From contig OZ022596.1 of assembly GCA_963669155.1 (NCBI GenBank), forward strand, positions 9,978,353 through 10,042,352: a stretch of DNA of 64,000 nt. The letters run 5' to 3'. Made by a program: the position numbers and the translations under genes. The stretch is from Arbacia lixula (Eukaryota > Echinodermata > Echinoidea > Arbacioida > Arbaciidae). The notes beneath the pieces were generated by a model. That model was not told the DNA's origin, searched no databases, and was given only the letters and a program-made list of their open reading frames with translations. Of the stretch, positions 18,827 through 62,815 are shown piece after piece. Positions within the stretch are counted from its first letter, which is position 1; every line of letters starts with the position of its first letter.

Positions 18827-20072
18827 CTATCGTTTGACAATTTGGTTGAACGTATGAATGGAGTTGGGAACAAAGGATTGACGGAAGCGTGTTCGATTTG
18901 TACGTGGGGCTCGCAGCCTGATACCAGAACGATTGAATGTGTAGTATTGATTGAGTGGGTGACTCTGATCTCTCATTATGTTATCCGTTTTTGATAATAG
19001 TCTCTGTTCGAACAAGTTAGTGACAGAGAGCAGATCGTTTCCTATTATGCGCTGTGCCGCCCGTCTCACTCGGTCTAAGCGATTCCGATTTTGTTGCGTC
19101 GCGTTGCCATAGTAGCACACTAAGTTATACGATAGTATGCTCTGGATTAGGGCCTGGTAGAACAAAGTCAGGATTGTCTTGTCTACATGAAGATTTTTCA
19201 TCATCCTCAGAAAGTACAATCTCTGATTCCCCTTTTTGCTTAGGCCATGTGTATTTTCTTTCCAGTCAAGAGTGTTGCTAATTGTACTACCCAGGTACTT
19301 GAACTCGTTCACTCGTTCAACCTCCTTGTCGTGCAAAATAAGCGGTTCGTGTTGTACAGATTTCTTTCGAAAATCGAAGACTACTTCTTTTGTTTTCGAT
19401 GCATTTAAATGAAGGTAATGTGCATCGCACCACTCCGTGAAGGCCGTAACAGTTGACACATATTCATGTATTTTTCCCTCTGTGAGAAAACCAGTTACTA
19501 CCATGTCATCCGCATATTTAATGATAGTACACGTTTCACTGTCACTTACAACTTCGCTAGTATACAGGGAGAATAAAGCGGGAGATAGTACACACCCCTG
19601 AGGAGCTCCTATGCTAATTACTTTGGTTTCAGATTTAAAGTCGCCAAATCTTACTGTTTGTGGTCTTTCTAACAGGAAGTTATGAATCCATAGCACAGCT
19701 AGAGGGTGAACATCCATTTCTATGAGTTTATTGGCAAGTAGGTGTGGCGTAATGGTATTAAATGCACTAGAAAAATCGACAAAGAGTGCTCTGACGAAGT
19801 TCCCACTGACATCCAAGTGTTGAAACACCCCGTGAAGAAAACATAACACTGCGTCATCTACCCCTCTGTTCTTACGGTATGCAAACTGTAGTGGATCAAG
19901 ATGGTTACCGATCTGACTCATGAGTCTTTTCAACACTAATCTTTCTAGGCATTTCATAGCACTGCATGTCAACGAAACTGGTCTAAAATCTTTATACTCC
20001 GTGCACCTGTTACTTTTTGGTACAGGTATTATTGTCGATGTCTTCCACAAAGTTGGGAATTGAATGAGTCAT
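18827..20072 (-). CDS. CR1/L2-like LINE reverse transcriptase, 5'-truncated, frame intact
   Basis: An uninterrupted minus-strand frame runs from a TGA near 20072 to TAG at 18827-18829. The 407 codons from 20050 start at a TTG, so the start is not real. Reverse transcriptase motifs in order: FRPVSLTCSAMKCLERLV, LQFAYRKNRGVDDAVL, ALFVDFSSAFNTI (motif A), GAPQGCVLSPALF (motif B), IIKYADDMVV (catalytic YADD), LHLNASKTKEV and FKYLGSTIS. A thumb region follows to the C-terminus. The family usually has an upstream AP endonuclease, which is missing, so this is a 5'-truncated insertion. Absence of stops or frameshifts across ~1.2 kb suggests recent insertion. The assignment to the CR1/L2 group rests on motif wording and is inferred. 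Confidence 0.85.
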
Positions 20073-31369: not shown

Positions 31370-31817
31370 CATACATGAGCAGATAGAATCACGACACCGT
31401 CCCTGGCTCTCAAACAATGTGATGCGTGTCTATGCCTTTAAAGCGCCCTCCCTCCCCTCCTGTCTTTAGACCGTCTCTCATTGAGTAGGCCTACAGCTTT
31501 ACATCTCCTCCCTCCTCTCTCCGTGAAGCACACGCCATCATCCGGGCGACAACAAGCCACCCGAATCTTCCGTCCAGACGACTGCACCCAATTGTTATAG
31601 CCAACAGCCCCATCAGCTATATTTAATTGTAGAATAAGCCCGGATGAGTATTCTTCATTAAGTCTATGCGTCTCGCATGTGTATTTATGCACAAGTAATA
31701 CACATCAATCCCATAAATCACCATTTTGTCTGGCATACAAAGCCTTACAGGACTGATCGATCTTTTGATCTTAACTGATCAGTTATATAAAGTTATAACC
31801 TACCTATTATATTCAGC
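31370..31817 (+). promoter_or_regulatory. 5' flank of GPCR copy A, homologous to the flanks of B and C
   Basis: It shares with 36912-37375 and 49309-49728 an ordered set of blocks: TATGCCTTTA(A/T)AG, GTCTTTAGACCGTCTCTCAT, CGTGAAGCACACGC, CAAGCCACCCGAATCTTC and TATTTAATTGTAGAATAAGC. Conservation in all three copies suggests promoter and 5'-leader sequence. TTTATAG in B and C could be a TATA box. Confidence 0.5.
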
Positions 31818-32372
31818 ATGAACGGCTCCGTTGTCGACATCGACTATGATCTCTACAATGATATGACAAACCGTACCGATGGTTCCTCCGACGTCTGGTA
31901 ATACACACCAATCCCACAAAGCACCATTTTGTCTAGCGTACAAAGGGTAACCGCTAAATTCCCACACAGCAAGGAGTGTAGAGCTCTGAAATACCCAACC
32001 TATCTGGACTAGACAGAAACGATGAGTCGTGTATCATATTCAGCATTAACGGTTCCGTGGTCAACATATACTACAATCTCGACAGCGCTGAAGTAAAGCG
32101 CAGCAATGATTCCTACGACGTCGGGTACGGCCAAGATTTATACGCCATGATGTACGTGGCTATCGAAGTCTTCAGGTACGCTCAGCTGGCCATCTGCGGA
32201 GTCGGCGTGGCCGTGAACGCCATGATCGTCGGTATCATGGTCGTCGACACGTCGTTCCACAACTCCTCCAGCTACTTCATCGTGAACCTAATCGATAGCC
32301 GAGTCAATTCCCTACTGGAAGGGCGATTTTACGTGTAATGGTCATGATGGTCCCTCACAGTACCTGCAATAT
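31818..32372 (+). pseudogene. GPCR copy A: recombinant, inactivated exon 1
   Basis: Two exon-1 beginnings lie in tandem. The first (ATG at 31818) reads MNGSVVDIDYDLYNDMTNRT and ends after DVW with TAA at 31899-31901, where the sequence switches to a C-type 5' flank (TAATACACACCAATCCCACA). The second begins at 32045 with ATT in place of ATG. It continues through TM1 (LAICGVGVAVNAMIVGIMVV) and loses ~29 nt of TM2 after NLI, shifting the frame to a stop at 32338. It keeps the donor site (CAATAT-GTAAGT, 32373). A 9-nt duplication (TGGTCATGA) is also present. No exon 2 or 3 follows before gene B at 37376. It is related to genes B and C and almost certainly cannot make a receptor. Confidence 0.85.
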
Positions 32373-33275
32373 GTAAGTACACTTTTTAATATATAATTTG
32401 GCTTCTCCTTTTGCCCAATTATATCATTGTTACGGCCACAGCAGATGACACGATTTTAGCATAGTGGCCTTTAGACCTAAATGTAACGGCTATCCATCTA
32501 GCACAAAAAAATTAACGTACGAGAGTTTTAGGGGGCACCTGTATAATCGTTTCGTTATTCTTGTTGCAGACCGTTCTTTAAAAGGATACTTCACCCTGAA
32601 ATTAGGTTGGTTTTAATAAATGTCAAAAGGGTCGGGCTACCTTTAATGTATTCATGGATTTACTTCATCACGCATGTTATTACGCCTATCAAATATGTAT
32701 GTGACAAATGTATTTTTCACTAGTAATACAAACAAATCCTGAAGAGGTGCATGTTTATCTTGCACGTTAAAGGTAGCCTGTCCCTTTTGCGGACCTAATT
32801 CTGAAAGTTCCCTGACTTCGGTAATTGATCGAGCTTTCTTTTTTCGTACCACGAAAAAAGTTTATATCTAAGTGAGAACGAGTTAGATTTTCTTTTATTC
32901 TACGGGAATTATAGTACCCTTGACCTTAAAATTTCACACTTAGTATCCCAAAGATACGTGGTAAACATGTGCAAAGTTTGCAGATAAAAAGGGACGGGCC
33001 ATCTTTAAGGGATGATTAAATATCTCTATACACGCATAATTAATGTTGAAGTATCTTATAAAGTCATATGAGAATGATTTGTATTACCAGCGCTCAATAT
33101 GCCACTATGCCAAGAACATGTACATGTACATCAAATTGCTTCAACATTATCATAATTCGTCATATGATTTTATCCATGTCATATATGATCAATATCTCTA
33201 GCAGTATTCCGTACGCCTTGTAGTATGTAAACGTGGACATTCTGCAGTGTTTTTTGTTCATGAGAATGGGTGATA
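32373..33275. other. Former intron 1 sequence of copy A and repeat fragments
   Basis: The first ~200 bp match the start of intron 1 of GPCR B. A CRE-MITE fragment (~32577-32622) and scattered inverted pieces (GGGTCGGGCTACCTTTAA at ~32628, TTAAAGGTAGCCTGTCCC at ~32766, AAAGGGACGGGCCATCTTTA at ~32987) follow. No gene is present. Confidence 0.5.
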
Positions 33276-33507: not shown

Positions 33508-33931
33508 AATCATGAGAGAGGTTTACGGTACACCATGTGTAAAGTCCTGGGAGGACTGAGATGAGAAAACGTGGATAGAATTGAAGGTGAAATGGACAGG
33601 CGAGAAAGTGGAGATTTGAAAGTAGAGTATTCTTTCGAAATGTGAGTGTAGTCCTGAAAAGGACTGTAAACCAGAAAGCGTGATTGACTGTCCGTCTTTA
33701 GACGGACAGTCAATCTGCCCGAAACGTCGAGTCCACCTCTCTACTCACCAGCTCTTCACGCTTTCTGGTTTACAGTCCTTTTCAGGACTACACTCACATT
33801 TCGAAAGAAAACTCTACTTTCAAATCTCCACTTTCTCGCCTGTCCATTTCACCTTCAATTCTATCCACGTTTTCTCATCTCAGTCCTCCCAGGACTTTAC
33901 ACACGGTGTACCGTAAACCTCTCTCATGATT
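33508..33931. repeat. Large foldback: 176-nt inverted arms with nested hairpin
   Basis: Arms 33508-33683 and 33756-33931 are nearly perfect reverse complements, both reading ..TCCACTTTCTCGCCTGTCC.. on the right strand. The 72-nt centre starts with a perfect 32-nt hairpin at 33683-33714 (stem ATTGACTGTCCGTC, loop TTTA). Confidence 0.88.
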
Positions 33932-36545: not shown

Positions 36546-36911
36546 CGAGAGCTCTCTCTGTATATCTGTGTGTCTGTATGTCGCTGTATCTGTCTTTCTC
36601 AGGTATTTCTCTCCTGGTACATGCATATCTCCGCCTTTTTATCTTCAAATTTGTCCCTCTCCTTGTCAGTATCTATATTATGTAGCTTTTCGTCACTTAA
36701 ATTCTAATGACTGTAGCTCTCCTTGGTGCATATGTATCTTTCTAGCATAGACTGTAGTTTATTAATGCGTCTCATTGTAGTAATTGATTAGCGAAATTCC
36801 ACGACCTTCGTTACGTTGACCTCCGCTGAGGCTATGTGGTGCTACGTACAATCTAAATCACAACGTATGGAAGTATGGAGTTGACGTCCGCGCACGTATC
36901 AACACCAAATA
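36300..36911. other. Outer upstream region of GPCR B; (CT)n at ~36490-36545
   Basis: Patches such as ACTGCTTGGCAGGT and AAAAGCCATTCAG-like text align with 47840-47960 upstream of GPCR C. The duplicated block therefore starts at least 1 kb before the coding region. The CT tract has also expanded upstream of C. Confidence 0.5.
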
Positions 36912-37375
36912 ATGACACGCGCGCACGCATCAGCATATGGAACCATTACACCGTCCCGGGTTCTCAATCAACTAGATGCGCGTCTTATGCCTTTATAGCT
37001 TGCTTCCTCTCCCCCTGTCTTTAGACTGTCTCTCATCGAGCTCCGCGTTACATCGGCTCCTTCCTCTCTCCGTGAAGCACACGCTATCATCCTAGCAACA
37101 ACGAGCCACCCGAATCTTCCGTCCAGACGACTGCACCCAATTGTTATAGCCAACAGCCCTATCAGCTATATTTAATTGTAGAATAAGCCCGGATGAGTAT
37201 TCTTCATTAAGTCTATGCGTCTCCCATGTGTATTTATTCACAGGTAATACACATCAATCCCATAAATCACCATTTTGTCTGGCATACAAAGCCTTACAGG
37301 ACTGATTGATCTTTTGATCTTAAAATATCCAAGTTATATGTTATATTAGGTTTTAACCTACCTACTATATTCGGC
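36912..37375 (+). promoter_or_regulatory. Promoter/5'-leader region of GPCR B
   Basis: Closely matches the flank of copy A and the flank of gene C. A CCTTTATAGCTTGCTTCC block at ~36990 could hold a TATA-like element. CACAGGTAATAC at ~37240 resembles a splice donor. The start codon context is GGC-ATG-A. Confidence 0.45.
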
Positions 37376-37723
37376 ATGAACGGTTCCGTTGTCGACATCG
37401 ACTACGATCTCTACAATGATATGGCAAACCGCACCGATGGTTCCGTCGACGTCTGGTACCCCACAAGATTACACTACATCCTCCACATGACTCTCCTAGT
37501 CTACAGGTACACTCAGCTGGCCATTTGCGGAGTCGGCCTTGTCGTGAACGCCATCATCGTCGGTATCATGATCTTCGACGTGGCGTTCCACAACGCATCC
37601 AGCTACTTCATCGCGAACCTAATCGTAGCCGATCTCGGGATGTCCGCCTCAGCAGTGGCTGAGTCAATTCTATACTGGAAGGGCGATTTCACCTGTAATG
37701 GTCCCTTACAGTACCTGCAATAC
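37376..37723 (+). CDS. GPCR B exon 1 (N-terminus, TM1, TM2)
   Basis: 116 codons, phase 0. ATG at 37376; TM1 LAICGVGLVVNAIIVGIM with the conserved Asn; TM2 NLIVADLGMSASAVAES with Asp2.50; the extracellular loop 1 Cys is in DFTCNGPL. The donor is TAC-GTAAGT. The open frame runs on past the donor to 37936, but those residues are intronic because gene C shares the splice position and not the downstream frame. Confidence 0.88.
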
Positions 37724-40700
37724 GTAAGTACACTTTTTTTTATATATATAATTTGGCTTCTCCTTTTGCCCCAAAATATCATTGTTACGACCAACGTAGA
37801 CGACACGATTTTTATACAGTGGCCTTTAGTCGTAAATGTAACAGCTATCCATCCAGCACAAACGAAATTAACGTACGAGAGTTGTGGGGGCACCTGCATA
37901 ATCGTCATATTACTCTGGTTGCAGAGTGTTATTTAAAAGGATAGTTCACCCTGAAATTAAGTTGGCTTCAATAAAAGGAGATACATGAAAGAAGAATAAT
38001 AGGAAAGGTTTGATGAAAATCCGTCAAAGGATAAATGGAGCTTCTTTATGCTTTTGGATGAAGGCTTTCTGCTCTAACATAGCAAATATAATGAATCTTG
38101 TAATCCCAATCCTCACATGAAATAAGTATACATTTTATTATCATATTCGTCGTCATAAAAATATTGTCAGTTGTTTTACCACCACGGGGGATTCATGTCA
38201 GCATGGATGATCAAATCAAATGATCCTTCAGAATGATATCGACATTTCAAAGCTGATAACGCAAAGACATCAAGATCAACCACCCAAGGACATCACAGGT
38301 CTAGAAGCTAAGTAATCCCGAACATTTTAAGAAATCAGCTGATTGTATAAATGATAAGCTTTTGTCACTTGCATCGTACGTACATATTTATTAACTTCGC
38401 CTTTGAACATGTTGATCTCTCCTTCAAAAAGAAAATCAAAAGATGTACATGATGTACTATGTAAATTCAACTTGCAGGAAACCTCAATTTGAGATAAACA
38501 TCAGTGATAATTTTACGTGAGCTTGCTCATGAATTATTTTTCCTATTGCCTTTTCTCACTAGCATGACTAGGTTTCCCACAAAATCTAAACTAAAAAATT
38601 TGTCTGATTTGCGACCAATAGCTGTATTTGTTTCATTAAAAAAATTGCTGAATCCTTTTATTCCAAAATGGATGTGCGATAATTGTGAGATAATTGATAA
38701 CAGCGAGATAATTGATAAAAAATCAACGTGGAGACCCCGGAACCTTTAAATTTGACATTATCTTATTGCAATATTACACAGTCTAAACCAAAATGCCGAT
38801 GAAGAGAAAATAATATATACGTTTGTTAAAAGTGATTTATCGAAAACACTTGATCGAAGTGATCTTAAGATTGTGATTCTTAAATAAATGTGCGTCTATA
38901 AGTTATTTCACTATTACAAGATCTCTTATAAAGCATTTTAGTTTTTAACTAAGTGATCTTGTCATTACTCACATTATTATCATATTGTCATTATCTTAAA
39001 ATCTTAAAAGGAAAAATACACAACGTATGAAAAAGAGCATCTCGCACGTGACGTCATAAACAAAGACAGATTTTTATCAAGCCTTTAATACAAGGTGTCT
39101 TTCATGTTTCTGCTTTCATTGAAACCCACTTTATTTCAGGGTGGACTATTCTTAGTAATCTTTATTGTGTGAATGCAACATTCTCACTAATAGTGGGATT
39201 TTTCGCGAATACCCCGGTATTTTGAGGAATGTGCGTATAACGATCAAGGAGCTTTCTGGCTAGGAAGAGTTCGGTAAATCCGCGCATATTTTTTTGTTAA
39301 GAAGCCAGGCTGGTTCCGAAGATTTTTTTTCCTACATTTTTTTTCTCTATTAATCCAGGTCATTTTTCAGGGCGCTTTCTTGTTAGTGCGAATTCGGTAT
39401 ATTTTTGTGTTAAGAAACTAGGCTAGTTCTGAATAAGAACATTTTGTTATTTTCTCTCCCTTAATCCAGGTCTTTTTCCAAGTCACAGGTTTCGCTTTGG
39501 TTCTCCTCACTCTAACCCGCTATGATGCCATCATCTACCCACTCGCCTCGCTGACTCGATGGAACAATAAACGAGTTCTGCTGAGTACTACCGGAAGTTG
39601 GGCATGTAAGTTAAAGGGGAAGTCCACCCTGAAGTTAAATTGTTTGTTATCATATCAGAGAAATGGCAGCAGTACAAAAGTGAAGGTTTGGCGAGAATCC
39701 GTGAAAGTTTCATTTTGTGACGTCACCTGTGAGCTGCTCTCTTATACGTTGAGTCCTCTATGATCACATACGTTGCTATCGCGATAGTTTCTTGGTGAAA
39801 GGATACGTTTGTTTCCTAGGGGAGGTGCGTGTGAAAAAAAACACAAAACCTGTGTGGCTTATTACATATCAAATGACAATGGAAGTTTAAAAAACAGAAA
39901 TAGTACGCAACATTTAGCACATTAGCTTGCAAGTGACGTCGCAATATTAAGCATTTCAAAAGTTATGTATCGGCTTGAGAAAGCCAACGGAAATTCAAAG
40001 TTGCGCCTGGGCCATAACACTCCGAGACCTACCCGAGCGCGTCCTGTGGTTTTCCGCTGAAATGTAAAAGGCAGCTGGAAATATATGTATCGCGTAGATT
40101 TTGCGTGTCGCGCATTTATTTGGGCTGAACCGTTATCGAGACCCTGGGGAGAATGAGATTATTATTATTTTGGTTTTCTAATGACCATGACGACATCACG
40201 AGATAGTCTTTTCTCCACCTTTGACGAACTCCTATTTTTTCTTCCCTCTGGGCTTCTTTGCTCTCTCTCTCTCGCAAATATTTCAAATATGAATGGTATT
40301 TTATATACTTTGAACTAATGAAATAATTGGAATGTATCAATGAAGGATATAAAAACAGATAGCTTGACAACATGCTAATATGACGTTTCATTTTAGTACT
40401 CTGCAGTGAGGAGCGGAGAGCCAGATGATGTGAATCGTAAATTATAGAGTAACTTCTCTCTAATGCTAGGTTCACACTGCCGATCAGATCAAGTTTGATC
40501 AAGCCCGATTACCCATTTTACCCAGACCAATCTCGACCGAATGCTTGATCTTCTTTCAACAAGATCCCTTCTAGACCGCTATTCGATCGTTTACGACCTA
40601 CACCCGACCATTTACGATTCCTCTAGTTCATCTTCTCGAACATACCGATCTATTCTCGATCAATACACGATCGATACATGGTCTGTACTCGATCTGTACT

Positions 40701-43699
40701 AGACCGCGTAGACCAACTCGACGTCTACACGATTTCTACACGATCTTAATTCGAGCAGATCCGCATATTCGCACAGTGATCAAAGAATTGGCTGGCGACA
40801 GCTATTCATTTGGTTGTAGGCGACGGAGCTACGTAGGTGTTTTGCACTTGACGGAGGGTGTGTGTATTGGGGGGGGGGGGTGCCTTTGATATCGCGCCCC
40901 TTGAACGTTTTGTAACATGTACATACCACGAACTCATCATCGACAAGTCGTGTCTGATTTTGGACTATGGAATTTGGAACAAAGTTGAGAGGTTTTCATG
41001 AAAAAAGGGAATCAACCATATTCACAGACGCTCTTAAAATATTTGCAAATTCTTACCCCTGCCCGGCCCCCTCCACAATTGTCCATGTTGTAGGCGAAAT
41101 AGAGCCACTGTTCATACTAAAAAGGGCGCAAGTTCAGTCCCTTGTGATCATTTTTGTATGTAGTTCAATACTTCATGAACTACAATAATTTAAAAGTTAT
41201 ATTATAATGTGTACATGAAATCACTATCCAAACGAACACCGTACCAAAATATCAACTTTAATTAAACTCTATAGTATAATAATATTTGAAATGATGGAAA
41301 TTTGACCAATAATTGATGTAATTGCCTATAAAGTGACAGGGACATTCGCGGCTCCGCAGAAACAATGACATGTTGCTTTTCTTCTCGGCTCCGTCCGACA
41401 TTGTTTCTTTGGGTCACTCTTATCATTAGGCCAATTGTCATCGTTGTTACGACATTGTGTTCACGATCATCATGATAAATATCATTGTCATAATTTGTAT
41501 GAACTCTAATTTCGTTATTAACAATGTTATTACACTTATTATGTAACCGTTATGGGCAATAGTACTTGCAGTAACTGTAGTAAAATTTGTAGTATACATC
41601 ATAGTTGTATAAGTAGTAGTCGTACTTATACTACTACTAGTAGAAGTAGGAGTAGTAGTAGTAGTAGTAGTAGTAGCAGCAGTAGTAGTTGTAGTAGTAG
41701 GGGAGAGCGGGGTAAATACGGACATAAAATTTCAAACTTCTGTATTAGCACAACGAGTAGTCCCATCATCAAATGGACATCGTATCATGTAACTAGGCGG
41801 TATACCCTCATTATGTCATCGTTAATGGCAAACAGCGTTATTTTTTTAAAAGTTATCTTTAAAAACGTATTGTCATAGATGTCCGCTATTCCCCGACAAA
41901 AAGTGGGGAATTACGGACATGTGGTGAGGTAAATACGGACGGAGAACAAGGTTGACTGTTTCGAGCCTACCCTAATTAAGCTACCCCCTCCCAACGCTTA
42001 ATCAATCGAAGCAGTCACTAGCTATTCCGTAGATTGTTTTCTTATCTTGCCTTCAGTGAAGTTTCTTAGTCCAAACCTATGCATTGAGAAGCGTACTTAT
42101 TATGTACAATAGGTTCATTATTTGATCTGCATATTATTGATCCATTTGTACAAGTTTAAGCTAAGCCTCATGTAATTTCATTCGTTAATGAGAAGATATC
42201 GGACTGATTTGAATAACTAAAATGTTAATTCAGCTTAGATTTCACGAGCTATAACACAAAACGCATTGTCTGTGGAACACGTTTTATTCTTTATTTAAAA
42301 GGAACTTACCAATCTTTCAGAGAGTTAATGAAGTACCGTTTGAGTCATTGTGCTTATATGAGAAGAGAAGTACTAAGTAAAGTTCAGTTTAACATTTTGT
42401 GAGAAATGTGAAAATTAACAACAATATGGATTTGTAAAGAAAAATTAGATGGCAAGCAAGTCTTTCCTTGAACAACGAACAACAGTACTGGGAAAGTATG
42501 TCATTACATGCTGCAATAACGTGTGCTAGTCGAGTTGCGTTTGGATCGATCGACTGCGGTCGAAAAGTACTCGAGATGTGATCGAGTGTGGTCTGGTGTC
42601 GGTCGAAACGTAATCAAGTTCAGTCGAGTAGAGATCGATAGCAGTCGTGTATCGTTGGCGCAACAGTCGAGTCATTCATGAAATGGACAATTTCTGGATC
42701 GAGATGATCGGGAACCAATCGTGTAGTATTCGAGCATAAATCGAGATGATTGGGAACTATGTGGTTGGAAAATTCCATCTCGACCGAACAGGATTTCTAT
42801 GCGACCGTTTCCCGATCAACTCGACCTCTTCTCGATCCCGGGTTCTCGATCACTACCCGATCTGTTGGCACTCGGGCCTCCTACTCGATGATTTTTGACT
42901 GCCAAAAATTATCGAGAAGGCAGCAGGAGCGATGTCGATCAAGGTAGACTAACCCCGAATACCCTTGGAGAGCGGACGCGATCAGGCCAAAATAGCTTGA
43001 TCGGGATTGATCGAGTTGATCTGATCGGCAGTGTGAACCTAGCACCAACCCCGCTCCTAACCCCACACCGTATCCATTGCTCACATTCTTATACAGTGCA
43101 TCATTTTGTTTCTGTCTTGTACAGTGTGCTTTTTGGCCATGCTCCCGGTCTACTTCCAATCATGTGCGCCCTCAACGACACTGGAAATCCTATCCCATAT
43201 CTACACATTTTGCGTCATGTTTATGTTGCCCGCCCTAGCACTTTTCTTCATGTACGCGCGCATTGGATGGGCGGTCCTACGCACTAACTTCTTCGTACAA
43301 GGCGACGCGCAAATGAACAACGCGCGCGCCAAACAGCATAAGAGACTGACCCGGATGATCATTGTCATTGTGCTCACCTTCTACATCTGCTGGGGCCCAT
43401 TGCCCACTTTCCTGGTCTACAAGTTCTTAGACGGCTGGGCCACAGTCTACTGGGTTAGGGACCGCATAGTCATGTATGTGCTGAAGTTGTTGGCTGATCT
43501 GATCGTTGTTGTGAACCCGCTTATATACATTCTCCTCGCTCCCAGCTTCCGGAAATATTTACAGAAGATAAAGTGCTCGGAGAAGATGTCCAATCGGGGA
43601 CTCGGTACAGGTGTCAATTCTAACTGTACCAGCGAACAGGGACCTAGCGCGAGTCACGTGACCTATACCGAGGACGCGCAGGCTGAGAATGCGTGCTGA
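37376..43699 (+). CDS. GPCR B: rhodopsin-class (class A) seven-transmembrane receptor, three exons
   Basis: Exons 37376-37723, 39470-39605 and 43125-43699 join in phases 0 and 1 with GT-AG introns to give 352 residues. The parts have the class A layout: extracellular N-terminus with N-glycosylation sites (N2, N18 region), TM1-TM2 in exon 1, TM3-TM4 in exon 2, TM5-TM7 and the cytosolic tail in exon 3. The role is inferred: a plasma-membrane receptor signalling through G proteins. The ligand is unknown; there is no Asp near position 3.32, so an aminergic receptor is unlikely. The usual DRY motif is TRY here. Intron 1 is 1746 bp with a LINE relic. Intron 2 is 3519 bp, mostly nested transposons. 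AATAAA lies at 43839-43844. Paralogue of gene C, ~12 kb downstream. Both could belong to an expanded marine-invertebrate orphan GPCR family. Confidence 0.87.
38461..38960 (+). pseudogene. LINE reverse transcriptase relic in intron 1 of GPCR B
   Basis: Decayed text such as LSDLRPIAVFVSLKKLLN resembles the DLRPIS.. motif at the start of LINE reverse transcriptases. The same relic, with different mutations, lies at 51030-51570 in intron 1 of gene C. The insertion therefore predates the duplication. Confidence 0.6.
39470..39605 (+). CDS. GPCR B exon 2 (TM3, TM4)
   Basis: 136 nt starting GTCTTTTTCCAA after an AATCCAG acceptor and ending GGGCAT before GTAAGT. It encodes VFFQVTGFALVLLTLTRYDA with TRY in place of DRY, then IIYPLASLTRWNNKRV and the start of TM4. 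A decoy acceptor-like copy (TTAATCCAGGTCATTTTTCA) lies ~115 bp upstream. Confidence 0.87.
39611..39745 (+). repeat. CRE-MITE copy at the start of intron 2 of GPCR B
   Basis: AAAGGGGAAGTCCACCCTGA..GTGAAGGTTTGGCGAGAATC..TTTTGTGACGTCACCTG. The same insertion is found at the matching place in gene C (52147-52270), so it is older than the duplication. Confidence 0.6.
41560..41699 (+). repeat. (TAG)n microsatellite
   Basis: TAG/AGT triplets, imperfect, ending exactly where the next element begins. The Ser/Thr-rich frames here are artefacts. Confidence 0.85.
41700..42465. mobile_element. Truncated copy of the GGGGAGAGCGGGG element nested in the 2.58 kb transposon
   Basis: It begins GGGGAGAGCGGGGTAAATAC right after a TA-G of the TAG repeat and is homologous, inverted, to 61785-62540. 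The opposite end is missing. Insertion at TA is likely. Confidence 0.8.
43125..43699 (+). CDS. GPCR B exon 3 (TM5-TM7, cytosolic tail)
   Basis: 575 nt after the acceptor CTTGTACAG; TGA at 43697-43699. Loop 2 Cys in VYFQSCAPS; TM5 CVMFMLPALALFFMYARIGW; TM6 MIIVIVLTFYICWGPLPTF with the CWxP motif; TM7 ending VVVNPLIYILLAP (NPxxY), followed by helix-8-like SFRKYLQKIKC. The tail is Ser/Asn-rich and ends ENAC. The stretch 43241-43455 is identical, base for base, to gene C. Confidence 0.9.
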
Positions 43700-46618: not shown

Positions 46619-46993
46619 ATTAAAGGGCATATACTGTACTGGGAGGGCCAAAAAGCCTTCAAAATGTAATTGTTAGCAATCTTCTTGCCAATGGTCTTAA
46701 TTTCATGTATTGCCTATTTTAGAAGCTTGCTAAATGTTATTTGCCCTCAAATGATCTACATTTGGAGTAATGAGTGATTAAATCACAAATCCTCAAAATG
46801 TTCGGGCCGAACATTTTGAAGATTTAATCATTAATAATTAATTACTCCATGTGTGGATCATTTGAGGGAAAATAACTTTCAGCAAGCTTCTAAAATAGAC
46901 AATACATGAATTTAAGACCATTGGCAAGAAGATTGCTAACAATTACCTTTTGAAGGCTTTTTTGACTTCCCAGTACAGTATATGCCCTTTAAT
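46619..46993. repeat. 375-bp near-perfect palindrome
   Basis: Arms of ~187 nt meet at AAAATGTTCGGGCCGAACAT (~46797-46816) with almost no spacer. Outer ends: ATTAAAGGGC / GCCCTTTAAT. A 71-codon frame running into it (46454-46669) is not convincing as a gene. Confidence 0.88.
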
Positions 46994-49728: not shown

Positions 49729-50076
49729 ATGAACGGCTCCGTGGTCGTCATCGACTACAATTTCGACAATGCCGGAGTAAACCGCAGCGATGATCCCTCC
49801 GACGTCTGGTACGGTCAAGCATCGTTTGCCTTGCTGTTCATGACTGTCGAAGTCTACAGGTACGCTCAGCTGGTTATTTGCGCTGTCGGTCTGATCCTGA
49901 ACGCCTTCATCGTCGGTATCATTGTCTTCGACAAGTCGTTTCACAACGCATCCAGCTGCTTCATCGCGAACCTAATCGTATCTGATCTTGCGATGTCCGC
50001 CGCAGCGATAGTGGAGTCAATTGTCTACTGGCAGGGCGATTTCACGTGTAATGGTCCCTTAATGTATCTGCAATAC
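49729..50076 (+). CDS. GPCR C exon 1 (N-terminus, TM1, TM2)
   Basis: 116 codons ending QYLQY-type text (MYLQY) before GTGAGT. TM1 LVICAVGLILNAFIVGIIVF; TM2 NLIVSDLAMSAAAIVES; loop Cys in DFTCNGPL. The frame runs into the intron to 50217, which is not coding. Confidence 0.88.
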
Positions 50077-53000
50077 GTGAGTACAATATATACATACATA
50101 TATATTTATATAATTTGGCTTCTCCTTTTGCCCAACCATACGATTGTTACGGCCATCACAGACGACACGACTTTGACACGATTCTTCAGTAGTAAGGACC
50201 TGCGACTGGAAGTGTGACGTCACCTTCTTGCACAAATTCAATGGCCGGGTCCAGCGACTTAGACCAGTTAGTGTCCTACGGCTGATCGGGTCGTGTCGCC
50301 TGTGGTGTTCTTTAGACGCAGACGTGCAACGGCTTTCTATCTAGCAGAAATGTTATATATATATATATATATGTAACGTATGAAAGTTTTAGGGAGCATC
50401 TGTATAATCGTTTCACCACTCTTGTTGCGGAGTGTTTTCAAACTTTTTTTTGACAGTAATATCTGCAATATTGATGAAAGCCAACATGGCCAATGGTCGA
50501 AATGTGAAGTGAAATAATTTTATCTAATATTTGTTTTCTTAATGTTTTTAATGGGTGTAATTCGAGTTATTTGGCGATTTAAAGGAGATTGAAATCAATA
50601 TGGGTAGAAAAGTATGCGTTAATGAAACTTATATGTGCTTTTGCTTGAAGGCCTTTAACAGCTTAAGCAAAAGGAAACTCATAATGAAATAAGAAGCCAA
50701 TGTTCATAGCTTATTTTTATATAATATTCTTTTTAATGGCAATATTTTTAGTTATGCTAGCAGCGCGAGGGATTCATGTCAGCGTGGATGATCAAATCAA
50801 ATTATTATCCAGATTGGTATACATCGACATATCAAAGCTGATAACATGAGGTCATCAAGATCAACCACTAATACACATACCAGGTCTTGAAGCTGATCAA
50901 CATGAACATTTGAGAAGATCAGCTAATTGTATAAATATTGAGCTTTTGTCACCTCCATCATATGTATGTATGTACTTTGCCTTTGATCATGTTGATCTCT
51001 CCAACAATACAATCAAAGGATATACGTGATGTACTGTGTAAAATCAACTTACAGAAAACCTCAATTTCAGATGAAAGAACAGTAAGAATTTTACGTCCAT
51101 TTGCTCATGAATTTTCTTTCCCGCATTAGCTTATATACACAATTATGCCATTTCTCACTAGGTTTCCCACAAATCTGGAATAAATTTTGGTAAAAATATA
51201 CCAATACCAAAATCTCAACTAAAAATTGTGTCTGATTTTGTTTCCCCATAGCGTTATTTTTCCTTCACAAATTGCTGAATCCTTTATTCCAAAACTGTTG
51301 TGCAAACTCATCAGCGAGATAATTGATGAAAATCAGTGTGGAAATCCCGGAGCCCTTCATTTTGTCATTATCGTTTTATACCAAAATGCAGATAAAGAGC
51401 ACATAATATCTACATACATAGTTTTAAATGGTTTATTGAAAGCTTTTTATCGAAGTGATCATGATATTGTGATTTGTAAATTGATTTCAATAAGCCTACG
51501 CCCATGGTGTTATGCAATTAATGGTAAACCTCTTATAAAGCGTTTTGATTTTTAACTAAATAATCTTGTCATTATTAAAAAAATAAGATTTAAGATTATC
51601 TCGCTCCACTATTTATATGATATTATATGCACTTGAGTGGTATATCTGATATACCACGAAAGAAATACAACATTATTATTACTATACATTCAAACTACTT
51701 TCCACAAGAGAAACAGTGGTTTAGTCACCCGTATAATTTCGTTCTCAAGCAATCCAACAACATTGATCGAATACATCAATTACTTCGGGTTAAATTTATT
51801 ATCGTACAGTGACACCTTAGATGCATATGAGGCTCTTTGACTTAGCCTAAAACTTTAATAAATAAACACATTTAATTGTTACCTCACCATGGGACTGTAC
51901 ATTTCAATTTAAGAAATGACCAGGAATACCATTAATTCAATTGTTAAAAACTATTAGATCCCAAAGTAGTCCTCTTTTGATACTTAATTCGTATTTTAAT
52001 TCAGGTCTTCTACCAGGCCACAGGTTTCGCTCTGATACTCCTCACTCTAACCCGCTATGACGCCATCATATACCCGCTCGCCTCACTGACTCGATGGAAC
52101 AATAAACGAGTTCTGTTGAGCACTACCGGAAGCTGGGCATGTGAGTTAAAGGGGAAGTCCAGCCTGAAGTTATATTGTTTGTGATTATAACAGAGAAATG
52201 AAAGTTGCACTTAAGTGAACGTTTGGTGAGGTTTCATTTTGCGACGTCACCTGCGAATTGCTCTTCTATATGTTGAGCGCTGTATGATCCCCTAAAAGAC
52301 ACTTCCGATGGTTTCTTGAAGAAAGAATGCATTTCTTTAATAGAGGAGGTATGTGTGAAAAAACACTTGTCCAATTTCCTATCAAATTACATAAAAAGTG
52401 AAATGGTATTGATATTATTTTTTAGAGAATGTATCACTGCTGTTTACTGTAACCATATACTCTAGAATCATTTGTTTAAACAACATGCGACGTCGTACTT
52501 TCGTGCTGTATACTGAGAAGTAGAGAGCCAGAAGTTGCCCCTGTTAAAAAAGTACCCAATACCTTCTCTTTGATACCGTCTCTCTAAACTCTCCGTCTCA
52601 ATTTCTCTAGTTCTAATACAGTGACTCTTGTTTGTCTTCTTTGTGCAGTGTGCTGTCTAGCTATGCTCCCAGTCTACTTCCAATCATGTGCGCCCTCAAC
52701 GACACTGGAGACCCTATCCCATATCTACACATTTTGCGTCATGTTTATGTTGCCCGCCCTAGCCCTTTTCTTCATGTACGCGCGCATTGGATGGGCGGTC
52801 CTACGCACTAACTTCTTCGTACAAGGCGACGCGCAAATGAACAACGCGCGCGCCAAACAGCATAAGAGACTGACCCGGATGATCATTGTCATTGTGCTCA
52901 CCTTCTACATCTGCTGGGGCCCATTGCCCACTTTCCTGGTCTACAAGTTCTTAGACGGCTGGGCCACAGTCTACTGGGTAAGAGACCGCATAGTTATGTA

Positions 53001-53223
53001 TGTGCTGAAGCTGTTGGCTGATCTGATCGTTGTTGTGAACCCGCTTATATACATTCTCCTCGCTCCCAACTTCCGGAAATTTTTACAGAAGATAAGGTGC
53101 TTGAGGAAGATGTCCAATCGGGGACTCGGTTCAGGTGTTAATTCTAACTATATCAGCGAACAGGGACCTAGAGTGACACACGTGCCATATACCGATGACA
53201 CGCAAGCTGAGAATGCGTGCTGA
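49729..53223 (+). CDS. GPCR C: rhodopsin-class seven-transmembrane receptor, three exons
   Basis: Exons 49729-50076, 52005-52140 and 52649-53223, the same sizes and phases as gene B, give 352 residues. Introns are 1928 and 508 bp with donors GTGAGT and acceptors TCAG/GCAG. All seven membrane segments and class A motifs are present: TRY at the end of TM3, CWGP in TM6, NPLIY in TM7. No stop or frameshift was found. Exon 1 differs from B at about 40 of 116 residues, mainly in the N-terminus and TM1-TM2. Exon 2 differs at 3 of 45 residues. Exon 3 differs at 16, of which 14 are in the C-tail. B and C therefore probably sense different ligands or have diverged in regulation while keeping the same signalling core. 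The ligand is unknown. Confidence 0.87.
51030..51840 (+). pseudogene. LINE reverse transcriptase relic in intron 1 of GPCR C
   Basis: Pieces such as IAESFIPKLLCKLISEIIDE, then NQCGNPGAL and LLKAFYRSDHDIVICKL, resemble the NQFGFRKG..AFD.VDH.ILL region of LINE reverse transcriptases. Stretches up to ~51570 align with 38461-38960 in gene B. The part after 51600 looks like further relic. Confidence 0.65.
52005..52140 (+). CDS. GPCR C exon 2 (TM3, TM4)
   Basis: 136 nt between TTCAG and GTGAGT: VFYQATGFALILLTLTRYDA, then IIYPLASLTRWNNKRV. Phase 1 at the 3' end, as in gene B. Confidence 0.87.
52147..52270 (+). repeat. CRE-MITE copy in intron 2 of GPCR C
   Basis: AAAGGGGAAGTCCAGCCTGA..TTTTGCGACGTCACCTGCGA, at the same distance from exon 2 as in gene B. 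Confidence 0.6.
52649..53223 (+). CDS. GPCR C exon 3 (TM5-TM7, cytosolic tail)
   Basis: 575 nt after TTGTGCAG, TGA at 53221-53223. Motifs as in B: SCAPS, FYICWGPLPTF, VVVNPLIYILLAP, then NFRKFLQKIRC. 52765-52979 is identical to 43241-43455 of gene B. Confidence 0.9.
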
Positions 53224-53389: not shown

Positions 53390-53640
53390 TTCACGGCTTT
53401 TTCAATATATATTGGGGGAGTGACCGGATTATTTCATACACGCTGAGGCTGGCGTCTGAACTAATCGTTATAATAAATCCCCTTTTGTATATTCTCCTTG
53501 CACCAAGTTTCAGAAATATATCCGAAAGATGAAGTGTCTCAGGGGAGGCGGAGCGGGTTCCAAAATCTACGTGGAAAGGCAGTTTGAGAACGCGTTTTAT
53601 TTCTTTGAGTGCCACGTGTGTATTTATTCACTAGTAACTC
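53390..53640 (+). pseudogene. GPCR copy D: isolated TM7 and tail fragment with a frameshift
   Basis: The frame reads FFNIYWGSDRIISYTLRLAS, then ELIVIINPLLYILLAPSF, which aligns with TM7 of B and C (NPxxY = NPLLY). One base is missing after SFR, so the frame ends at a TGA (53530-53532). In the next frame the helix-8-like KYIRKMKCLRGG continues, and a longer tail ends at a later stop. It is more diverged from B and C than they are from each other. No TM1-TM6 sequence is nearby. It lies ~170 bp downstream of the gene C stop, so it is the leftover 3' end of a lost fourth receptor. Confidence 0.75.
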
Positions 53641-57459: not shown

Positions 57460-58930
57460 TCATGGTGGAACCATTCTGCCGTCACCACTGGGTCTGATCA
57501 TATACTTTGGTACTTTTGGAGGGAAGGTCATGGTCATGCTCCGTTACATTATTGATCGGGAGATGACCATAGGAGTGACAATATGTAACATCCATATATG
57601 TTTTGAAAAGCGGAACAAAAACGAAAAACATCAGAACAAATTAAAATGAAATGTGTGGTACGGTTCTTGGATTGCAATGATTTTAAAAAGTTTCAATCAA
57701 AGAATAACACGTATCCAAAATATACGCGTTTATTGTTTATAGAACGTACACAGTATTTTGTCGGATTTTACGCTCGTTCTTCCAAAAAGTGACATTTTGT
57801 TCTTGGTCAGTGGATGACTATAAGCGTGATAATATCTAACATAATTGTATGTTTTGAAAGGTGGAAGGAATGCCGAGATCACCTGAACATGTCGAAAAGT
57901 AATATGTTGTATGGTTCTTGAAGTACAAGGATCTAAAAAGTTTAAACCGAAAAGTAACACGCACGCAGGATATACACGTATGCAGTTAATACGCAATATT
58001 TTGTCCGATTTCACTCAATTCTTCCAAAATACTCCGTGACATTATTGATCCAGGGATGACCATAGGTGTGACAATGTGTAACATCCATATATGTTTTGAA
58101 AAGCGGAACAAAAGCCAAAAACATTAGAACAAATTGAAAGGAAATGTGTGGTACGGTTCTTTGATTACAATGATTTTAAAAAGTTTCAACCGAAGAGTAA
58201 CACGGGTCCAAAATACGCATTTATAGAACGAACGCGTATTTGGTCGGATTTTACGCACATTCTTCCAAAATGTGACATCATGTCATTGGTCAGTAGATGA
58301 CTATAAGCGTGATAATATTTAACATCAATATATGTTTTGAAAGGTGGAAGGAATGCCGAAATCACTAGAACGTGTCGGAAAGTAATATGTTGTATGGTTC
58401 TTGAAGTACAAGGCTCTAAACAGTTTCAACTGAAAAGTAACACGTGCAGAATATACACGTATGCAGCTAATACGCAACATTTTGTCCGATTTTACTAAAT
58501 TCTTTCAAAATGCTCCGTTACATTATTGGTCAAGAGATGACCATAGTTGTGACAATATGTAACATCCATATATGTTTTGAAAAGCGCAAGAAATGCCAAA
58601 AACATTAGGCCGACTTGAAAGGAAATGTGGGGTATGGTTCTTGGATTACAAGTATTTGAAACGCTTCAACCAAAAAGTAGCACGTATCCAGTATATACGC
58701 GTATATAGGACGTACGCAGTATTTTGTCCGACTTTACGTGCATTCTACCAAAACGTTACGCTCTATTATTCGTCAGGAGATGACCATTAGCGTGAGCAAA
58801 TGTCCCATTCTTATATGTTTTGAAAAGCTTGAGAAATGCCGAACACAGCAAACTAAGTTTGAAATAAATATTTGGAATGGTGTGTGAACTACAAGAATTG
58901 AAAAAGTTTAAACCGAAAAAGTGCACAAAA
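57460..58930 (+). repeat. Six ~240-bp tandem monomers of two alternating types
   Basis: Monomers start near 57537, 57787, 58027, 58267, 58507 and 58750. Type A holds TGACCATAGG-like and AACATCCATATATGTTTTGA. Type B holds TGACTATAAGCGTGATAATA and GAAAGGTGGAAGGAATGCCG. The order A-B-A-B-A-(B-like) makes a ~480-bp higher-order unit. Confidence 0.8.
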
Positions 58931-61163: not shown

Positions 61164-62540
61164 GGGGAGAGCGGGGTAAATACGGAAAGGGGTAATACCA
61201 GACAGGCCTGTTTCAGGACTATCGCAATAGATGTCGTTCTAAATGTATCCTGGATGACATGCTCTGCACGTGATAAGTCAAGCTCCAGAAAAAAGTCTTT
61301 ATTTCCGTCATTTAATGAAAAGACAAAATGCAATTTATACCCACAGAATGGGTTTATAGATTTCAGTTTATCGATTCATTGCTTTAAGGGGGTTAGATTT
61401 ACAGTACTTTTTGCAACAAAGTTTTATTCAGTGTGATCCATTGTTTAACACAAATGCAGTGTTAATTGTTATGAATCAGCGGTTTAGGCTGTATAAAGGT
61501 ATCATGGGTCAAAGGTCAATGTGGGGTTATAGCGGACGGGTGTACGTTATTGCCCCACGTTGTTCGGTATTACCGGTAACATAATATTTACTCTCATATA
61601 ACGAGGAATCTAAAGTAACAGGGTGAATATATCATTGTCCACAAAAGCTCGTTATAAGAAGCAAGTTCTACTGCTTATGATAATGATTACACGCGTCGTA
61701 TTTTACAGGACCTACATCTATAAAATAAAACACTGAAGAACGACTTGAAACATGGATGCCATATACGTGCAGGGTAAGATGTTTTTGACTTGCCATTTAC
61801 ATTTGCTTTAAAAATCCACATTGTTGATTATTTCCACATTTCTCACAAAATGTAAAACTGAGAATTACTTATTACTGCTCTGCTCATTAAGCACAATGAC
61901 TCAAACGGTAATTCATTAACTGTCTGAAAGAGTGGTAAATTCCTTTCAAATAAAGAATAAGTATTCCACAGAACTTGCGTTTCGTGTTATGGCTTGTGTT
62001 TGGTTTCAGTAAAAGAAAACTCAGCTGAATTAACATTTCAGTTATTCAAATAGTCCGATATCTTCTCATTAACGAATAAAATTCCATGAGGCTTAGCTTA
62101 GGTATAAATGGATCTATAAGATCCAGATCAACATTAATAAATAAACCAAAATGTACATAATTAGTACGCTTCTCAATGCATAGGTTCGGACTAAAAAACT
62201 TCACAGAAGTCAACATAAGAGAATTTACGGAATAGTTAGTGTCTTCTTCGAGGGTTAGCTTAATTAGGCAAGGCTCGAAACAGTCAACCTTATCTTCTGT
62301 CCTTATTTACCTCACCACATGTCCGTAATTCCCCACTTTTGGTCGGGGAATAGCGCACATCTATGACAATACTTGTTTAAAGATAACTTTAAAAAGAATT
62401 AACGCTGTCTGCCATTATCTATGCCATAATGAGGGTATACCGCATAGGTACATTATACGATGTCCATTTGATGATGGGAATACTCGTTGTGCTAATACGC
62501 AAGGTTGAAATTTTATGTCAGTATTTACCCTGCTCTCCCC
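61164..62540. mobile_element. 1.38 kb DNA transposon with GGGGAGAGCGGGG TIRs
   Basis: Left end GGGGAGAGCGGGGTAAATAC, right end (inverted) GGGGAGAGCAGGGTAAATAC. Flanked by TA on both sides. No transposase-like frame. A truncated inverted relative lies at 41700-42465. Superfamily not assigned. Confidence 0.8.
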
Positions 62541-62815
62541 TATGTGGTACTTACCAAGCTAAATACCACAGGTACATGTGTGATAGTTACTAACCTCCCC
62601 GTGGTGCTTCTTGGGGTACCCGTTGCTACCACGCTAAATACTACGGGTACATCAGTGGTAGTTACCAACATGCCCAGTGCAAATTCGTGTGGTACCTGTT
62701 GCTATAATACTAAATACCACATGTACATCTGTGCTCTTACCAAACTGTCCTGTGGTACTTCCTGGGGTATCTCTTGTTACCATGCTAAATAGCATGGTGG
62801 TATACTATAGTAGAT
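62541..62815 (+). repeat. Minisatellite, right part
   Basis: About three ~80-90-bp repeats of TACCA-GCTAAATACCACAGG, GTACATCTGTG and GTGGTACTTCTTGGGGTA. The 95-codon frame here is repeat-derived. Confidence 0.7.

Follow-up and report, generated by a model that had tools for sequence, protein, structure and literature searches.

Two adjacent receptor genes, their surroundings and their paralogues

This study is based on one genome assembly of Arbacia lixula, from which a stretch of 64,000 nucleotides, here called the window, was analyzed over its whole length; there is no N within it. The window contains two adjacent and intact genes on the plus strand, B and C, with three exons each and 353 codons each including the stop codon, the splice sites of which were placed by eye and with the help of the open frame (Table 1). 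The third exons of the two genes are spaced 9.5 kb apart on the same strand and correspond to each other in a register with an offset of 9524. In a profile search, residues 58-296 of the B protein matched PF00001 (7tm_1) with 86.6 bits (cut-off 30.5) and an E value of 2.5e-24, and B and C are tandem duplicates belonging to the rhodopsin-type (class A) GPCR genes. Motifs characteristic for class A receptors are DRY closing TM3, CWxP in TM6, and NPxxY in TM7. CWGP and NPLIY/NPLVY were found, and the TM3 motif is TRY, not DRY, in B and C as well as in their paralogues E, F, and G. The best relatives of B/C with a solved structure were KISS1R (1.1e-16), SSTR4, and SSTR2, with scores too similar to assign B and C to any one subfamily of the kisspeptin/somatostatin/galanin-type peptide receptors. 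Helix positions given throughout were inferred from the alignment to solved GPCRs and from characteristic motifs, not from a model.

Table 1. Location of genes B and C, of related copies, and of shared sequence in the window.
Feature	Position	Strand	Remarks
Copy A, chimeric exon-1 pseudogene	31400..32620	+	B-like 5' piece to about 31898, then second 5'UTR/exon 1 piece
5' flank block of gene B	36974..37176	+	resembles copy A and the flank of C at about 49322-49525
Gene B exon 1	37376..37723	+	N-terminus to about the start of TM3; GT donor; 40/116 residues unlike C
Gene B exon 2	39470..39605	+	about TM3-TM4; 3/46 residues unlike C; dS 0.385
Gene B exon 3	43125..43699	+	about the end of TM4 to the stop codon
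Wider low-divergence patch, gene B exon 3	43146..43651	+	scan optimum 43148-43651; 8 differences in the first 398 nt
Identical tract, gene B (core of the putatively converted patch)	43241..43455	+	215/215 nt; 0/46.7 silent sites changed
Gene C exon 1	49729..50076	+	
Gene C exon 2	52005..52140	+	
Gene C exon 3	52649..53223	+	
Wider low-divergence patch, gene C exon 3	52670..53175	+	same register, offset 9524
Identical tract, gene C	52765..52979	+	215/215 nt
Fragment D	53395..53560	+	decayed; TM7/tail portion of the exon 3 of a more distantly related copy, just downstream of C

Copy A combines a B-like promoter region and the first 81 nt of exon 1 with a short shared motif, after which a second 5'UTR/exon 1 follows whose exon 1 piece carries a 29-nt deletion; no exon 2 or 3 for copy A was found by tblastn in the whole window. 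When the proteins of B and C were used as queries in tblastn (E up to 1e-3), no further relatives were detected in the two 60-kb stretches that flank the window, and scans of the window with Rfam (gathering thresholds) and for tRNAs gave no matches. Between A and B an inverted repeat (33508-33683 / 33756-33931) with 176-nt arms, 99% complementary and 72 nt apart, looks like a foldback element. A palindrome (46619-46993) with 187-nt arms that are 89% complementary and 1 nt apart is located between B and C, and intron 2 of B harbors an interspersed repeat (41698-42456) that recurs in opposite orientation and with 83% identity at 61789-62542. A tandem array (57472-58927) is composed of units of about 240 nt, and some copies that lie two units apart are the most alike (88-89%), as in a higher-order repeat. 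On the minus strand, 1-2388 and 18830-20068 hold a reverse transcriptase frame as well as an open frame whose domains are a PIF1 helicase and an endonuclease; the latter frame would presumably fit a Helitron-like element.

A search of the genome with the exon 3 protein produced at least six matches at E values up to 1e-10 (150 of 269 candidates were scored), all of them on one contig (C21). The exon 3 matches listed are B, C, fragment D, and the three genes E (78%), F (64%), and G (59%). The opposite strand carries E and F, which are separated from B by about 0.56-0.59 Mb and from each other by 35 kb, and G is 3.4 Mb away. These three genes are full-length and show the same three-exon layout with open frames; the sequences of E and F as used end inside their stop codons.

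Silent divergence and extent of the homogenized patch

According to the original prediction, 215 nt of exon 3 are identical in B and C even at third codon positions. The identity turned out to be exact, with single differences flanking it at 43240 and 43456, and no difference exists at any of the 46.7 silent sites of the tract. The span proposed for it was likewise recovered, as the tract would start where TM5 ends, include ICL3 and TM6, and stop shortly ahead of TM7 when helices are placed by inference as described above. In the proteins, B and C differ at 40 of 116 residues encoded by exon 1, as had been stated before, at 3 of 46 residues encoded by exon 2, and at 16 of 191 codons of exon 3 (stop codon counted).

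Comparing B and C exon by exon, it is evident that synonymous divergence is not uniform. Values for dS (NG86) were 0.315 in exon 1, 0.385 in exon 2, 0.262 in the part of exon 3 preceding the tract, and 0.147 in the part following it, and the absence of silent differences in the tract (0 of 46.7) contrasts with 31 differences at about 115 silent sites in exons 1 and 2 (Fisher P 1.1e-5). Exon 2 serves as an internal control, since its protein is conserved yet its silent sites have diverged, indicating that a conserved protein alone does not hold silent sites in place. In alignable intron sequence, 267 of 1173 sites differ between B and C, and this value of about 23% is a lower figure from which introns past aligning are excluded. 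Alignable pieces of 5' flank, introns, and 3'UTR are 18-30% different, apart from one 9-nt piece with 11%; in the 3'UTR, 18 of 101 sites differ and there is one 41-nt gap. The end of intron 2 (30% different) and the 3'UTR (18%) are collinear on the two sides of the patch, and both third exons have identical splice phases. GC3 is 0.761 in the tract compared to 0.707 and 0.681 in the unconverted exon 1; with exon 1 nearly as high, GC3 gives no distinctive sign of biased conversion.

When the whole coding sequence was scanned for intervals of low silent divergence, the best interval was 43148-43651, with 7 of 116 silent sites changed, and was matched by 4 of 5000 codon shuffles. A scan confined to exon 3 was matched by 179 of 5000 shuffles and a silent-run test inside exon 3 only gave P 0.04; one reason why tests restricted to exon 3 are weaker is that low silent divergence covers most of this exon. 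The 215 nt had been proposed as the whole tract and hold as its core but not as its full extent, the homogenized patch measuring about 0.4-0.5 kb (approximately 43146-43651). Codon-bootstrap 95% intervals for silent differences were 0.163-0.357 for exon 1, 0.158-0.514 for exon 2, and 0.025-0.134 for the patch at 43146-43543. The interval for the C-tail (0.017-0.227) overlaps those of both patch and exon 1 and the 3' end of the patch is therefore vague. In the patch, dN is 0.003. Its silent divergence is about 0.07, roughly one fifth of the level seen for exons 1 and 2, which places a conversion well after the duplication. The stretch 43146-43543, an interval picked after inspection of the data, contains 8 differences in 398 nt, and a gap of at least 215 among eight randomly placed differences has a P of 0.016, which weakly suggests that the core reflects a younger event on top of an older one.

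A GENECONV-style test for shared runs was performed with our own script, not with the GENECONV program. The longest run in which B equals C comprises 82 of 470 family-polymorphic columns, from 43243 to 43455, and no match to it occurred in 2000 shuffles. Over 217 polymorphic codons at which the B/C residue is kept, the run was 52 (matched by 69 of 20000 shuffles); the evidence is weaker over the 70 codons that are silent in all five genes, where a run of 18 was matched by 1424 of 20000 shuffles and is not significant alone. Low-scoring runs were also obtained for other pairs, namely C-F with 13 columns in exon 1 (0/2000), B-E with 18 (5/2000), B-F with 10 (29/2000), and F-G with 9 in silent codons (40/20000), and as such short runs score low, the test must be considered liberal for genes with rates that differ from part to part. 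In length, the run shared by B and C far exceeds that of every other pair. Within the tract, dS is 0.29 for B/C-E, 0.78 for B/C-F, 0.46 for B/C-G, 0.64 for E-F, 0.62 for E-G, and 0.99 for F-G, and silent sites in the tract are thus free to change.

Conflicting trees and a possible older exchange

In the quartet of B, E, F, and G, the sites uniting B with E, B with G, and B with F numbered 5, 14, and 4 in exon 1, 2, 4, and 4 in exon 2, and 0, 2, and 3 in exon 3 before the tract. The corresponding counts were 6, 4, and 2 in the tract, 10, 0, and 1 in TM7, and 12, 2, and 1 in the tail. Sites uniting B with E thus made up 7 of 38 informative sites before the tract versus 22 of 26 after it (Fisher P 1.5e-7), and when C replaced B in the quartet, 2 of 29 versus 22 of 27 sites united C with E (P 1.1e-8). 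The informative sites of exon 2 were also considered for sorting the relations of E, F, and G, and with counts of 4, 2, and 4 they gave no resolution.

In trees, whose clades were named after inspection of the data so that support values are indicative, E grouped with F when exons 1 and 2 were used (94/94, not starred) and a B+C+E group was rejected (p-AU 0.035; exon 2 by itself gave no decision, p-AU 0.13), whereas the sequence from 43456 to the end united B, C, and E (100/99) and E+F was rejected (p-AU 0.0027). In the tree of 43125-43240, F and not E was placed beside B/C (85/83), and the start of the E/F conflict is consequently not fixed; the tree of the tract was poorly resolved. That exons 1-2 and the last part of exon 3 group the genes differently suggests an older exchange within the family. 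The partners were probably E and the ancestor of B/C, because dS between E and B/C is lower in exon 3 (0.37-0.38) than in exon 1 (0.64-0.75) and exon 2 (1.03-1.47). An exchange between F and G is a possible alternative source of the conflict, as F and G are closer in exon 2 and TM7 (dS 0.58 each) than in exon 1 (1.03). Either exchange could have been produced by conversion or by chimeric duplication. Trees of the B/C/E/F/G family that are built from exon 3 may misplace genes, E or F above all.

Probable gene conversion between B and C and alternative explanations

On the basis of the sequence comparison, we consider it very probable (about 0.9) that part of exon 3 of one gene, B or C, was overwritten by that of the other through interlocus gene conversion. 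Conversion as originally predicted is upheld by the non-uniform dS, the exon 2 control, the silent divergence among paralogues, and the diverged but collinear flanks, whereas the adaptive part of that proposal is not. After tandem duplication, B and C would first have diverged to roughly 0.3-0.4 substitutions per silent site, and then the homologous part of exon 3 would have been copied between them, leaving a converted patch of about 0.4-0.5 kb, from around 43146 into the C-terminal tail, with the 215-nt core devoid of differences. This may have happened in one event followed by a few later mutations, or in two events, the younger of which covered the core. The diverged collinear flanks on either side of the patch would fit a non-reciprocal transfer. 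Fragment D was considered as an outgroup that might show which gene was the donor and was discarded, since its alignment, judged by eye, reaches no more than about the final 20 nt of the tract. The cause is likely to be mechanical, with conversion occurring during repair between copies that are close and in the same orientation, and exon 3, being the longest exon and hence the longest intron-free homologous stretch, may have aided it.

An adaptive version, which is compatible with conversion, would have selection preserve the exon 3 conversion and push the two first exons apart for ligand recognition. It can draw on the 45 N-terminal residues, where dN is 0.374 and dS 0.333 compared with the patch dN of 0.003, and on the apparent exchange of exon 3 more than once in the family, but we regard it as unlikely. 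The ratio of about 1.1 in these 45 residues is indistinguishable from 1, and in exon 1 overall dN/dS is 0.72. Exon 2 was left unhomogenized as well despite its conserved protein, so that the sparing of exon 1 does not require selection. In the E-F pair, dN is 0.264 in exon 3 and 0.228 in exon 1, so that exon 3 is not the better conserved of the two and conservation of the rear half is no general trait of these genes. Exon 3 also encodes ECL2 and the pocket-forming parts of TM5-TM7 and for this reason is not purely a coupling module. The selection on ligand recognition that had been suggested may have acted but is thus not demonstrated, given an N-terminal dN close to dS and the escape from conversion of the protein-conserved exon 2.

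A related, rather doubtful proposal is that exon 3 might be a shared signaling cassette with at least two exchanges in its history, the first involving E and the ancestor of B/C and the next B and C, with exon 1 free to diverge; gene E is now about 590 kb off on the opposite strand. If this were true, the family would vary its ligand end while retaining one common coupling end, and it would offer a system for testing whether receptor families hold on to a common coupling half as the ligand half diverges.

An assembly artefact, by which two near-identical stretches collapsed into one or the sequence of one served to fill in the other, is very unlikely. Although the assembly has gaps, with 200 N in the 60 kb upstream of the window, the window itself has none, the 215-nt tract sits in a wider patch with 8 differences in 398 nt between diverged flanks, and among the exon 3 matches listed only B and C exceed 78% identity, with no leftover haplotype copy seen. 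Still less probable is that exon 3 was kept identical in this part by constraint on protein and silent sites together, for example by an RNA element or a splicing enhancer, with no exchange. A low dN of 0.041 between B and C in exon 3 and the conserved receptor motifs inside the tract would agree with such constraint, but comparisons among B/C and the three paralogues give dS values of 0.29-0.99 for the freely diverging silent sites of the tract, and exon 2, equally protein-conserved between B and C with 3 of 46 residues changed, has a dS of 0.385. It is similarly improbable that one gene acquired its exon 3 from the other by recent insertion or segmental duplication and not by replacement of a homologous exon already in place. 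Similarity does peak in exon 3, but the end of intron 2 and the 3'UTR are collinear and differ as much as is usual for the paralogues (30% and 18%, apart from one 41-nt gap in the 3'UTR), and the splice phases are the same in both exons.

Conversion limited to exons or domains is already documented among receptor and adhesion paralogues (PMC3125219, PMC1852091, PMC3213168, PMC2644715). Gene conversion in the receptor paralogues TLR1/TLR6 and avian TLR1A/B was seen in many species (PMC3125219), and there are, as for B/C, a homogenized C-terminal part, a diverged N-terminal part, and evidence including identical codons at conserved residues. In contrast to B/C, which are GPCR genes studied in one genome with a patch of about 0.5 kb, TLRs are type I membrane proteins with C-terminal tracts of about 0.6-1.3 kb (PMC3125219). 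The clustered protocadherin paralogues of fugu resemble B/C in the sharp edge at which a diverged 5' part gives way to a near-identical 3' part, but many genes are homogenized there and GC3 is clearly raised, whereas in B/C one pair is affected and GC3 is close to that of exon 1 (PMC1852091). Gibbon L/M opsins are, like B/C, arrayed rhodopsin-type GPCR genes that exchange sequence while a functionally different part is kept apart; their tracts are mostly intronic and exons differ more than introns, unlike the exonic tract and diverged introns of B/C (PMC3213168). In the mouse V1R cluster of chemosensory GPCR genes, conversion was likewise deduced from anomalous dS, there from the divergence of orthologue pairs between species and here from a tract within an exon of one genome (PMC2644715). 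Among the titles listed in a partial literature search, which is no proof of absence, none dealt with conversion in an echinoderm or other receptor family recognizable as that of B/C. Most likely, the B/C tract is a clear but ordinary gene conversion and a new instance of a known process. Its use is as a small and clean worked example of exon-limited conversion in GPCR genes, with exon 2 as control and the paralogues speaking against silent constraint.

The 5' flank block of gene B has, over 36908-37123, a match of 72% in gene G, located about 5 kb ahead of the first of the three G exons, as would suit a promoter or a first exon that is untranslated. Over 137 polymorphic columns of the 5' flank, a run of 26 is shared by A and B (1 of 10000 shuffles) and a run of 7 by B and C (14 of 10000). 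These runs may be further exchanges, and constraint is an alternative, given the match of this block in gene G.
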